A stretch of DNA of 64,000 nucleotides from Candidatus Eremiobacteraceae bacterium. Its GTDB lineage: Bacteria > Vulcanimicrobiota > Vulcanimicrobiia > Eremiobacterales > Eremiobacteraceae. Below the pieces are notes generated by a model. It worked only from the letters and a program-made list of their open reading frames with translations. It did not search any database and was not told the DNA's origin. Below, in pieces: positions 13,003 to 17,368 of this stretch (position 1 is the first letter of the stretch; each line of letters starts with the position of its first letter). A program made the position numbers and the translations under genes. The stretch covers positions 1 through 64,000 of the forward strand of contig DATCBN010000027.1 of assembly GCA_036511855.1 (NCBI GenBank). The letters run 5' to 3'.

Positions 13003-16000
13003 CTACGCGCGGTGCGGCGCGAGTGCCGCCGCGACGATGCGCTCCTGTTCCACCGCATGCGCGCCAGGGTATCCTTCGCTCGGACTCGCGCGGTCTGGCC
13101 GGCCCTCATAGTCGAATGCGATGTTGAGCGGCTGCAGTTTCTCGCGGATTCGCCGTGAGACAAACGCGCGCGCTCCCATGTTGCGCGGCTCCTCTTGCAC
13201 CCACGTGACTCGTTTGACGTCCGGATAGGATCGGACCAGCCCCATCACGGCTTCGAGCGGGAACGGCTCGAGCATCTCGACGCGCACGATGCTCAGGTCC
13301 TTCGCCTCCGCGCGTTTTGCGTTTGCGATCAGGTCGTAGTAGATCTTTCCGCTGCACAAGATGAGACGCCGGATGCCTTTGCGGACCTTCACGGTCGGGT
13401 CGTCGAGAATCGGCGCCAACGCGCCGTCGGCGAGGTCTTCGAGCCGAGACGTCGCCACCTTCAGCCGCAAAAGGCTTTTCGGCGTCATGATGACGAGCGG
13501 GCGCGCCTTGGTGCCGAGCGCCTGATCCCGCAGCAGATGGAAGTACTGCGCCGGTGTCGTGCAATTGGCGATGCGGATGTTGCCGTCGCTCGCGAGCTGC
13601 AGAAAGCGCTCGAGCCGCGCACTGGAATGTTCGGGTCCGGCGCCCTCGTAGGCGTGCGGCAGCAACAGCGTGAGGCGCGAGGTCTGCCCCCACTTCGCCA
13701 TGCCTGCCGAGATGAATTGGTCGATGACGATCTGTGCGCCGTTCGCAAAGTCGCCGAATTGCGCTTCCCAGACCACAAGGGCGTTCGGAGCTGCAGTGCT
13801 GTAGCCGTATTCGAATGCTAGACAGGCGTACTCCGAGAGCGGGCTGTTGTACACTTCGAACGATGCGCGAGCGCCGCGAAGGTGCTGCATCGGAACGTAG
13901 GCCGCGCCTGTTTTCTCGTCGTGCAAGACAGAATGGCGGTGGCTGAACGTTCCGCGCTCGGTGTCTTGGCCGGTGAGCCGCACGGGAACGCCTTGCATGA
14001 CGAGCGTAGCGAACGCAAGCGCCTCGCCCGTGGCCCAGTCGATCTCGCCGCCCGGATCGAGTGAGGTCCGGCGTCGATCCAACTGCTTCACCAATTTCGG
14101 ATGGACCGTGAAGCCTTCCGGCGCAGCGAGCAGCTGCAGATTGAGGCCTCGCAGCACGTCCGCCGCAACGCGGGTAGCAGGCGCACTGTGCGGCGCTCCG
14201 TTTTGCGGCCGCTTGCCTGGATCGAGCGAGCCGTGTTCCTTGATGCGTTCTTTGACGTTCGCATGTGCCTCGGCGACACGCTGGTAGGCCGTATCGTAGC
14301 GTTGCTGCGCATCGGCTTTTGTCGTGATGCCTTCCACGATCAGACGCTCGGCGAAAAGGTCGCGCACGGTTGGGTGGCCGGCGATCGTCGCGTACATGAG
14401 CGGCTGCGTGTACGCAGGCTCGTCGGCCTCATTGTGGCCGAAACGCCTGTATCCGATGAGGTCGATGAGCACGTCGCGTTTGAACTTGCGCCTGAAGTTG
14501 ACGGCGAGCGTCACCGCGCCGATGCACGCCTCGATATCGTCGGCATTGACGTGGATGACCGGAACGTCGGTGCCTTTGGCGAGGTCGCTCGCGTAGCGCG
14601 TGGAGCGGTCGTCGGATGGTTCGGTGGTGAAAGCGATCTGATTGTTCGCGATGAGGTGGACCGTGCCGCCGACGGTATATCCGCGCAGCGCCTGCATGTT
14701 GAGCACTTCTGCGACGACGCCTTGGCCTGTGAACGCCGCATCACCGTGCACGAGCAACGGCACGGCGCGCGAAGCGTCCGTGGTGGAGATATTCGACGTG
14801 CGGTCGGTCTGGTCGGCGCGAGTGCGGCCGATGACGACTCCGTCAACCGCCTCGAGGTGGCTGGGATTGTTGACGAGCACGACGTCGATGGATTTCCCGT
14901 CGCTCGTCGCGTACGTGCCCTGCGCCCCTTGATGATACTTGACGTCACCCGTCACATCGCCTTGGATGTCGCCGCCTCGCAGCTCTGCCTGTTCGAATTC
15001 CAACAGCACTTCTTCGTACGGCCGGTCGACCACGTGCGTGATGAGCGAAAGGCGGCCGCGGTGCGCCGTGCCGATCTCGATCTTGTGGACGCCGTCATCG
15101 GCCAACAGGTGCAGCAGCTCCTCGAGGATGGGCACCATCGCATCGAGGCCCTCGATCGAGAACGTCTTCTGGCCGAGGAACGCCTTGCGCAAGTAGCGTT
15201 CGAATGCTTCGACGCGCGTGAGGCGGTCGAGGAGTTCGAGTTTGCGCTCTCGAGGGAGCGTCCTTACGTGCGCCCCCGACTCGATCTCGCGCCGCAGCCA
15301 CGACCGTTGCTCGTGGCTCGTGATGTGCTCGACTTCGTACGCGATGGTCGAGCAATAGATCTTGCGCAGGTTCTCGAGCACGTCCACCAGATTGTCGCCT
15401 GGCGCATACGTCCGCACGGTCGCGGCCGGCACGAGACGCGCGGCGGCTTCATCGAGCGCCAACGATGTCGATTCCAGGACGGGATCGCCTTCCTGCGGGC
15501 CGCCGAGCGGGTCGAGCGTGGCGGCGGTGTGCCCGTGTGTGCGAATGCGGCTGATCATCGACATGCCTGCCGCCGCTGCCATCGCAAGCGACATCGCATC
15601 GGCGTCCAGGCCGGGTTTTCCATCGCTGGGCTTCGGACGGATTTGCCCGGACGCTTCGCCGGACGGCGCGGGAGTCGTAGCCGAGAGCGCAACGCCGAGG
15701 GAGGCTGCGATTTCGTCGTAAAATCCGTTCGCGCCGCCGAGCAGTTGATCGATGCGGCGTAGGAATTCGCCGGATTCGGCGCCTTGGATGATGCGATGAT
15801 CGTAGGTGCTCGTCAGCGTCATCACTTTCGTGATGCCAAGCTCGGTCAAGCGGTCGGCGGCGACGGTGGCAAACCCCGGCGGATAGCCGATGGCGCCGGA
15901 CGCGACGATGGTGCCCTGGCCGGTCATCAAGCGCGGCACCGACGCGACGGTGCCGATCCCACCCGGGTTTGTGAGCGTGATCGTGGCGCCGGAAAAATCG

Positions 16001-17283
16001 TCCGGCATGAGTTTGCCGTCGCGCGCTTTGGCGACCAGCGCCTCGTAGCCGGCGAAAAAAGATTTGAAGTCGAGCGACGCCGCGTCGCGGATCACCGGCA
16101 CCACCAAGAAACGGGAACCGTCTTTGCGCTGCGTATCGACCGCCAGGCCGAGGTGCACGCCGCGCGTGACGCGCTCGGGACCCTGCGGACCGCGGCGGAA
16201 CGAGGTGACCATTGCCGGCGTGGTCTTGGCGGCCCGCGCGAGCGCGAACGCGATGAGATGGGTGTACGAAAGCTTTTCTTTGCGGGCCGCCGATTTCAGC
16301 GCTGCGTTGAGCGCGAGTCGCCGTTCGTCCAAGACCCCGACGCCGACTGTCCGAAGACTCGTCGCGGTGGGGATCGCGAGGCTCTGCTCCATCGCTGCGG
16401 CGAGCGAAGCAGCTGGACCCTTTAGCTCGGTGACCGTCGCGCCAGGCTCCGGCGGTCGCGGACGAATTTGTTCCACCGGCGCAGGCGGCGCAGACGACTC
16501 GACGTCGCTGCGGCGGATGACGCCGGCCGGACCGCTCCCGCTGACTTTGGACAAGTCGACGCCATTCTCGCGCGCAAGGCGGCGCACGCCGGGCGGCGCG
16601 TGAATCGCCGGCGCTGGATGTTTCCCGTCCGGCGCGGAGATCGTTGCGGGCGGGCTTGCCTTGACGGCCGTGGCTGCGGCCGCCGGCGCAGCCGGCTGCG
16701 GCGCTGCAGAAGAGTCGGCGGGCGGCGGCGCTGCATGCGAAGTCGCCGCCACGGCAGATTCAGCGCCGATCTCGCACAACGGCGCGCCGATCGCGATCGT
16801 CTCGCCTACCTTTGCGAAGACGTGAAGCAAGTAGCCGCCGACGGGAGACGGGATCTCGACCTTCCCGTCACCGCTGACGATGTCGACGATGACATCGTCA
16901 CGTTCGATAAGGTCGCCTTCACGTTTATGCCACGACCCGACAGTGGCTTTGCTGATCGATTCGCCGACCGCGGGCATCTCCACGATCGTGGACGTGGCAT
17001 TGGCGGCAGCAGCGGGTTTTGAAGCCGGCGCAGCGCCGGCCGGCTCGATCTCCGCGAGCAGCGCGCCCACCGAGACCGTGTCGCCGTCTTTCACAAGGAA
17101 GCGTTTGATGCGGCCGGCAGCCGGCGCCGAGATCTCGACGTCGACTTTGTCCGTGGTGACGTCGATGACGGTCTCGCCGGCTTCGACCATATCGCCGGGT
17201 GACTTGCGAAGAGCGGTGATGGTGCCTTCGGTTACCGATTCACCCATCGAGGGAAGGACGACTGGCAGCAGGGCTTCGCGCAC
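13003..17283 (-). CDS. kgd: fused lipoyl-E2-E1 2-oxoglutarate dehydrogenase/decarboxylase
   Basis: 1426 residues; GTG start with AGGAG 6 bases upstream. Domains: lipoyl domain 1 (about 5-80, lipoyl lysine TTDK46), lipoyl domain 2 (about 98-172), subunit-binding domain (about 228-262, GVRRLARENGVDL), acyltransferase core (about 284-517, active-site histidine H496 in YDHRIIQG) and a thiamine-diphosphate E1 region (about 560-1426, with AHRGRLS, HGDAAFTGQG and NNQIAFT). The acyltransferase-E1 fusion matches actinobacterial Kgd/OdhA, which converts 2-oxoglutarate to succinyl-CoA in the TCA cycle. Those enzymes lack their own lipoyl domains; this one has two. In lipoyl domain 2 the canonical lysine position holds D139 and the lysine is two residues later. 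No E3 gene lies nearby. Confidence 0.93.
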   Translation of the reverse strand: MREALLPVVLPSMGESVTEGTITALRKSPGDMVEAGETVIDVTTDKVDVEISAPAAGRIKRFLVKDGDTVSVGALLAEIEPAGAAPASKPAAAANATSTIVEMPAVGESISKATVGSWHKREGDLIERDDVIVDIVSGDGKVEIPSPVGGYLLHVFAKVGETIAIGAPLCEIGAESAVAATSHAAPPPADSSAAPQPAAPAAAATAVKASPPATISAPDGKHPAPAIHAPPGVRRLARENGVDLSKVSGSGPAGVIRRSDVESSAPPAPVEQIRPRPPEPGATVTELKGPAASLAAAMEQSLAIPTATSLRTVGVGVLDERRLALNAALKSAARKEKLSYTHLIAFALARAAKTTPAMVTSFRRGPQGPERVTRGVHLGLAVDTQRKDGSRFLVVPVIRDAASLDFKSFFAGYEALVAKARDGKLMPDDFSGATITLTNPGGIGTVASVPRLMTGQGTIVASGAIGYPPGFATVAADRLTELGITKVMTLTSTYDHRIIQGAESGEFLRRIDQLLGGANGFYDEIAASLGVALSATTPAPSGEASGQIRPKPSDGKPGLDADAMSLAMAAAAGMSMISRIRTHGHTAATLDPLGGPQEGDPVLESTSLALDEAAARLVPAATVRTYAPGDNLVDVLENLRKIYCSTIAYEVEHITSHEQRSWLRREIESGAHVRTLPRERKLELLDRLTRVEAFERYLRKAFLGQKTFSIEGLDAMVPILEELLHLLADDGVHKIEIGTAHRGRLSLITHVVDRPYEEVLLEFEQAELRGGDIQGDVTGDVKYHQGAQGTYATSDGKSIDVVLVNNPSHLEAVDGVVIGRTRADQTDRTSNISTTDASRAVPLLVHGDAAFTGQGVVAEVLNMQALRGYTVGGTVHLIANNQIAFTTEPSDDRSTRYASDLAKGTDVPVIHVNADDIEACIGAVTLAVNFRRKFKRDVLIDLIGYRRFGHNEADEPAYTQPLMYATIAGHPTVRDLFAERLIVEGITTKADAQQRYDTAYQRVAEAHANVKERIKEHGSLDPGKRPQNGAPHSAPATRVAADVLRGLNLQLLAAPEGFTVHPKLVKQLDRRRTSLDPGGEIDWATGEALAFATLVMQGVPVRLTGQDTERGTFSHRHSVLHDEKTGAAYVPMQHLRGARASFEVYNSPLSEYACLAFEYGYSTAAPNALVVWEAQFGDFANGAQIVIDQFISAGMAKWGQTSRLTLLLPHAYEGAGPEHSSARLERFLQLASDGNIRIANCTTPAQYFHLLRDQALGTKARPLVIMTPKSLLRLKVATSRLEDLADGALAPILDDPTVKVRKGIRRLILCSGKIYYDLIANAKRAEAKDLSIVRVEMLEPFPLEAVMGLVRSYPDVKRVTWVQEEPRNMGARAFVSRRIREKLQPLNIAFDYEGRPDRASPSEGYPGAHAVEQERIVAAALAPHRA

Positions 17284-17368
17284 TCACTACTCCTGGTGTT
17301 TTCGCATGCTGCGCCCGGCTCGCCGCGAAAAAGGCTCGGCGTCCGCGCACACTTATGGTTTCAATTCC

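Follow-up and report, generated by a model that had tools for sequence, protein, structure and literature searches.

The open reading frame (ORF) studied here lies on the minus strand of a 64,000-nucleotide stretch from a Candidatus Eremiobacteraceae bacterium (assembly GCA_036511855.1, contig DATCBN010000027.1, positions 1 to 64,000), which we call the window. It occupies positions 13003..17283 and comprises 1426 codons without internal stops or ambiguous bases. The product is a predicted 2-oxoglutarate dehydrogenase (OGDH) in which two lipoyl domains, a peripheral subunit-binding domain (PSBD), an E2 succinyltransferase and an E1 decarboxylase follow each other in one chain of 1426 amino acids. 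The GTG start immediately follows an upstream stop, and an AGGAG read directly 6 bases before it (17290..17294, minus strand) is a likely ribosome-binding site. The best NCBIfam family is PRK12270 (Kgd), with 1430 bits where the cut-off is 878; for the SucB family TIGR01347 the protein scores 202.9 bits, under the cut-off of 378.65.

Domain architecture and gene integrity

All features of the protein are encoded on the minus strand. Pfam matched the lipoyl family PF00364 twice, with the best stretch in lipoyl domain 1 (residues 8-79, positions 17047..17262) and a second one in lipoyl domain 2 (about residues 101-174, 16762..16983). These are followed by the E3-binding domain, or PSBD (PF02817, 5.6e-14; residues 227-262, 16498..16605), and by the E2 catalytic domain (PF00198; residues 283-515, 15739..16437). 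The thiamine diphosphate-dependent E1 part (residues 575-1421, 13021..15561) is covered by TIGR00239 (575-1419) and by PF00676 (738-1014), PF02779 (1080-1273) and PF16870 (1279-1421); its Foldseek hits are SucA and KGD, and the sequence motifs surrounding the E1 histidines are intact. No Pfam match to the SucA N-terminal segment, PF16078, was obtained in the 1426 residues. An earlier note, written by a model from the sequence alone, had described one chain with this order of domains, and the intact ORF together with the Pfam matches bears this out, including PF00364 (twice) and PF02817 within the N-terminal ~300 residues.

The E2 domain of 2-oxoglutarate dehydrogenase type (E2o) stands ahead of a complete E1 of the same type (E1o), and the structure 8p5r aligns over residues 268-1420. 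In an alignment to 8p5t, His496, Gln500, Ser309 and Tyr494 fall on His316, Gln320, Ser129 and Tyr314 of OdhA. These four residues belong to the E2 site of OdhA, where the serine and the tyrosine hold the succinyl carboxylate (PMC10415282). AlphaFold2, given residues 3-303 together with 18 relatives, returned two barrel-sandwich domains with a predicted local distance difference test (pLDDT) score above 90 over both, and two PSBD helices with pLDDT mostly in the 80s. With this model, the best small Foldseek targets included an OGDH lipoyl domain (1ghj), and with a model of the E2-E1 core the best solved structures were OdhA and KGD, at 38-41% identity.

Coding base composition is continuous across the E2-E1 junction. 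Both congeners gave full-length, stop-free matches to the ORF, and almost every genome sampled from the window's class has the E2-E1 fusion, including one assembled as a single contig. One family in another class of the same phylum has a stand-alone SucA in place of the fusion.

One of the two lipoyl domains has lost its lysine

Lipoyl domain 1 carries the motif TTDKVDVE, which puts Lys46 (17146..17148) at the tip of the hairpin, and Lys46 is the predicted lipoylation site. None of the 36 aligned class members departs from this motif or from the glycines around it. In lipoyl domain 2 the fold is kept and the canonical lysine is lost: when its VSGDGKVEI is aligned to TTDKVDVEI of domain 1, Asp139 (16867..16869) takes the place of the lysine. 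The closest lysine, Lys141, sits two residues further on, within the strand. The congeners have DANGSLIEI and DADGSLIEI here, both lysine-free. Relatives with two lipoyl domains outside the window's genus keep TDK in both, and going by these alignments the loss is confined to the window's genus within our sample. The second lipoyl domains of this genus also form a long branch in the lipoyl-domain tree.

A review of lipoyl domain mutants of the pyruvate dehydrogenase (PDH) of B. stearothermophilus reports that a lysine shifted by one position is not lipoylated (PMC6270654). Since domain 2 lacks the lysine in its motif and a displaced lysine failed in that case, the protein likely has a single working arm, on domain 1. 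The missing lysine speaks against two working arms. The earlier note had counted two lipoyl domains, which holds for the folds (PF00364 twice, AlphaFold2) and not for the attachment lysine, found in domain 1 only. In the lipoyl-domain tree, some proteins (L018, L033) have two lipoyl domains that pair with each other before any other sequence, which suggests that a second domain originated, or was homogenised, on more than one occasion in the class.

Thirty-two of the 36 class members pass PF02817 at 1e-3, and all 36 keep the TTDK lipoyl domain. A purpose-built PSBD profile missed only L014. By eye, the PSBD looks degenerate in several genera of the family to which the window belongs (N-termini of L007, L012, L013 and L014).

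Gene content of the genome

The genome is a 96%-complete draft in 112 contigs, and no separate SucA or SucB was found in it. The fused gene is its sole E1o-type gene. There are only two other E2 genes, located on contigs C91 and C22; both follow genes for E1-alpha and E1-beta and score below the SucB cut-offs. The genome provides for E3 and for lipoyl assembly, because the operon on C91 (2548-9229) encodes, besides E1-alpha, E1-beta and E2, a dihydrolipoyl dehydrogenase (Lpd), LipB and LipA. Separately, we observed the alpha subunit of a 2-oxoacid:ferredoxin oxidoreductase in the other arm-bearing genomes tested as well as in this one.

Distribution of the fusion and of its N-terminal modules

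Relatives were sought with a nucleotide pattern that encodes the Kgd-type motif of E2 and includes a nearby isoleucine instead of the actinomycete methionine in order to miss most actinomycete sequences. The set obtained is a sample that makes no claim to completeness, and bins carry the names under which they were deposited. At least 118 stretches matched. The matches listed came from Acidobacteriota, Gemmatimonadota, Planctomycetota, Ignavibacteriota, Chlorobiota, Rhodothermota, Balneolota, KSB1, Actinomycetota, Dormibacterota, Chloroflexi-labelled bins and Eremiobacterota, and Kgd/OdhA-type E2-E1 fusions thus occur in at least 10 phyla.

From more than ten phyla, 136 non-redundant fusions had an N-terminus that could be read. 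Typed with purpose-built profiles that agree with Pfam on seven full proteins, 85 of them carry a SucA-type N-terminal segment, 49 carry one or two lipoyl domains, two have neither and none has both. Lipoyl arm and SucA segment are mutually exclusive in this sample. One of the two proteins with neither module (L090) looks broken; the fusion genes L154 and L090 appear interrupted, with a split frame or shortened ORF, by draft-assembly error or as pseudogenes. Lipoyl-bearing forms were found in Eremiobacterota, Dormibacterota, two Chloroflexi-labelled bins and one member of the Thermoleophilia, the spread outside Eremiobacterota resting on single records. Literature searches, from which subscription journals were mostly absent, returned no description of a lipoyl-bearing Kgd. 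The protein is real and conserved; it belongs to the Kgd/OdhA kind, as a variant that appears not to have been described before, and is not a categorically new enzyme.

Phylogeny

All fusions have E2 domains of a single family, which a branch of 3.26 separates from SucB and the PDH E2. This E2 type rules out a separate origin in which an ordinary SucB was joined to SucA. In trees of E1 and of E2 plus E1, all lipoyl-bearing forms fall inside one clade with a support of 100. The arm-containing clade (100/100) also holds fusions with the N-terminal segment, one from Gemmatimonadota (L137) and one from Thermoleophilia (L182), and in the E1 tree its sister is the SucA of Bacillota. In an approximately unbiased (AU) test on E1, a single clade of all lipoyl forms was not rejected (p 0.062). 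The lipoyl domains of the fusions stand apart from those of PDH and SucB with 97/92 support, in a tree of 76 columns only. AU tests on the E2 domain with E2 outgroups rejected neither order of arm gain and loss, the quick E2 tree not being optimal.

A separate observation concerns the two halves of the protein. The E1 parts of the lipoyl clade (L193-L199) group with stand-alone SucA proteins of Bacillota (L067, L070; 100/100) and not with the actinobacterial Kgd E1, while their E2 parts are of Kgd type. This mismatch hints at an exchange of E1 or a later splitting of the gene.

Discussion

Based on the anatomy, the conservation, the gene content and the phylogenetic placement, we consider it probable that the fused protein found in soil bacteria of the phylum Eremiobacterota is a one-chain E1o-E2o 2-oxoglutarate dehydrogenase that has its own arm and needs only E3. 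The E1 part would decarboxylate 2-oxoglutarate on thiamine diphosphate and load the succinyl group onto lipoyl-Lys46 of domain 1 within the same homo-oligomer, presumably a Kgd-like hexamer. The E2 part would then pass the succinyl group to CoA, and the PSBD would hold a dihydrolipoyl dehydrogenase, probably the one from the PDH-type operon, to reoxidise the arm. The lipoyl group would be made by LipB and LipA from the same operon. On this explanation domain 2 is a spacer or a relic in the window's genus. The earlier note had proposed that one polypeptide performs both steps with its own swinging arms and binds E3; the lipoyl domain, the PSBD and the genome lacking a separate SucA or SucB agree with this, and only the plural has to be given up.

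OdhA requires AceF to donate the lipoyl group, and a role in contacting further components of the complex has been put forward for its N-terminal segment (PMC10415282; PMC10581250). The arm module would stand in for this segment, so that docking in trans is replaced by an arm in cis, as the mutual exclusion of the two modules would fit. If the proposed docking segment is indeed replaced by the arm, the PDH complex should not be needed as lipoyl donor.

Several findings weigh against this interpretation. In the monomer model the orientation of E1 to E2 differs from that in OdhA, with a root mean square deviation of about 26 A over both, which is probably a limit of modelling. For 4 of the 36 class members Pfam gives no PSBD match at E 1e-3, and some proteins may bind E3 weakly or dispense with this binding. 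Furthermore, a ferredoxin-type 2-oxoacid oxidoreductase is encoded (alpha subunit, C45:10447-12153), so that the cell may have another way to oxidise 2-oxoglutarate besides the fused enzyme.

Other explanations of the gene and its product have to be set against a self-sufficient enzyme. Apart from the draft state of the genome, nothing was found in favour of a frameshift or chimeric assembly of a sucB-like and a sucA-like gene, which the earlier note had named as its own refutation; stop-free full-length orthologues in the congeners and the same fusion in separate genomes across the class rule out such a join, the coding composition runs unbroken through the junction, and we regard this explanation as negligible. 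The enzyme could also work like the actinobacterial OdhA/KGD, with vestigial arms and lipoyl groups supplied in trans by a PDH-type E2. The core is indeed of Kgd type, PDH-type E2s with lipoyl domains are present in the genome, domain 2 has no lysine in the window's genus and the PSBD is weak in some class members. However, a lipoyl domain 1 that is invariant in every class member aligned does not look like a relic, and the segment proposed to dock OdhA on its partners is absent, which makes supply in trans improbable. The substrate might be another 2-oxoacid, since E1o-like enzymes such as DHTKD1 use 2-oxoadipate and a sequence does not give specificity with certainty. Here the assignment to the Kgd/SucA families, the retention in E2 of the serine and tyrosine that bind succinyl in OdhA, and the position of the gene as the only E1o-type gene in the genome all favour 2-oxoglutarate, and a different substrate appears very improbable.

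The same enzyme could have a different history, in which the lipoyl-bearing form is ancestral and the actinobacterial-type Kgd lost its arms. An AU test on the E2 domain with all N-segment fusions on one side did not reject this (p 0.65), and the outgroup branch to ordinary E2s is very long (3.26). On the other hand, the N-terminal segment is common to stand-alone SucA and hence old, and it is found within the very clade that holds the arms (L137, L182). No protein has both modules, and a loss of the arm would have to be accompanied by regain of the segment. We thus consider an ancestral arm unlikely. It is more likely from the trees that the arm replaced the SucA segment than that it was retained, because N-segment fusions of Gemmatimonadota and Thermoleophilia fall in the same clade as the lipoyl forms; replacement is also the simpler course because stand-alone SucA has the segment too. 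The lipoyl domains, which the earlier note took to have been kept, thus read as probably acquired, and its suggestion of an intermediate or independent design does not agree with a single Kgd-type E2 family and this shared clade.

Published work on OdhA/KGD presents the fused enzyme, or an odhA-like gene, as a signature of Actinobacteria (PMC10415282, PMC10581250), and the fused core is far more widespread than this structural work on OdhA/KGD implies. We think it likely that the arm-bearing proteins of Eremiobacterota, Dormibacterota and some Chloroflexota-labelled and thermoleophilial bacteria constitute an undescribed class of 2-oxoglutarate dehydrogenase, in which a docking segment was swapped for a built-in lipoyl/E3-binding arm and which is complete with E3 alone, free of a PDH/ODH supercomplex. 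This makes a concrete prediction: the N-terminal segment should be the part that ties OdhA to the donor of its lipoyl groups, and a form with an arm should need no partner other than E3. Such an enzyme would also offer a compact, naturally occurring E1-E2 chain in which arm movement could be followed structurally.

Compared with known systems, the protein shares with the actinobacterial OdhA/KGD (PRK12270/NF008907; PDB 8p5r, 8p5t, 2xt6) an E2o fused N-terminally to E1o, at ~40% identity over 1120+ residues, as well as the His/Gln dyad of E2 and a conserved phenylalanine after the E2 domain (Phe521, by alignment near Phe340 of OdhA). Unlike OdhA/KGD, it has lipoyl domains (one or two in relatives) and a PSBD, and lacks the helical PF16078 segment; the actinobacterial control L063 gave the reverse result for PF00364, PF02817 and PF16078. 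As the earlier note stated, actinobacterial Kgd/OdhA, the only fused enzymes of this type studied to date, have no lipoyl domains of their own; according to the literature they use those of E2p, the PDH-type E2 (PMC10415282, PMC10581250). The actinobacterial type is further characterised as a homohexamer regulated by OdhI/GarA. The N-segment fusions of Acidobacteriota, Gemmatimonadota, Planctomycetota, Ignavibacteriota, Rhodothermota and others have the same E2-E1 core, but carry a PF16078-like segment and no lipoyl domain. With the canonical OGDH (SucA plus SucB) the protein has in common all E1o and E2o catalytic domains and the standard E2 order of lipoyl domain, PSBD and catalytic domain. 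It differs from the canonical enzyme in being a single polypeptide without the SucA N-terminal segment and in its Kgd-type E2, with DHRxxQG and not DHRxxDG, far from SucB in the tree.

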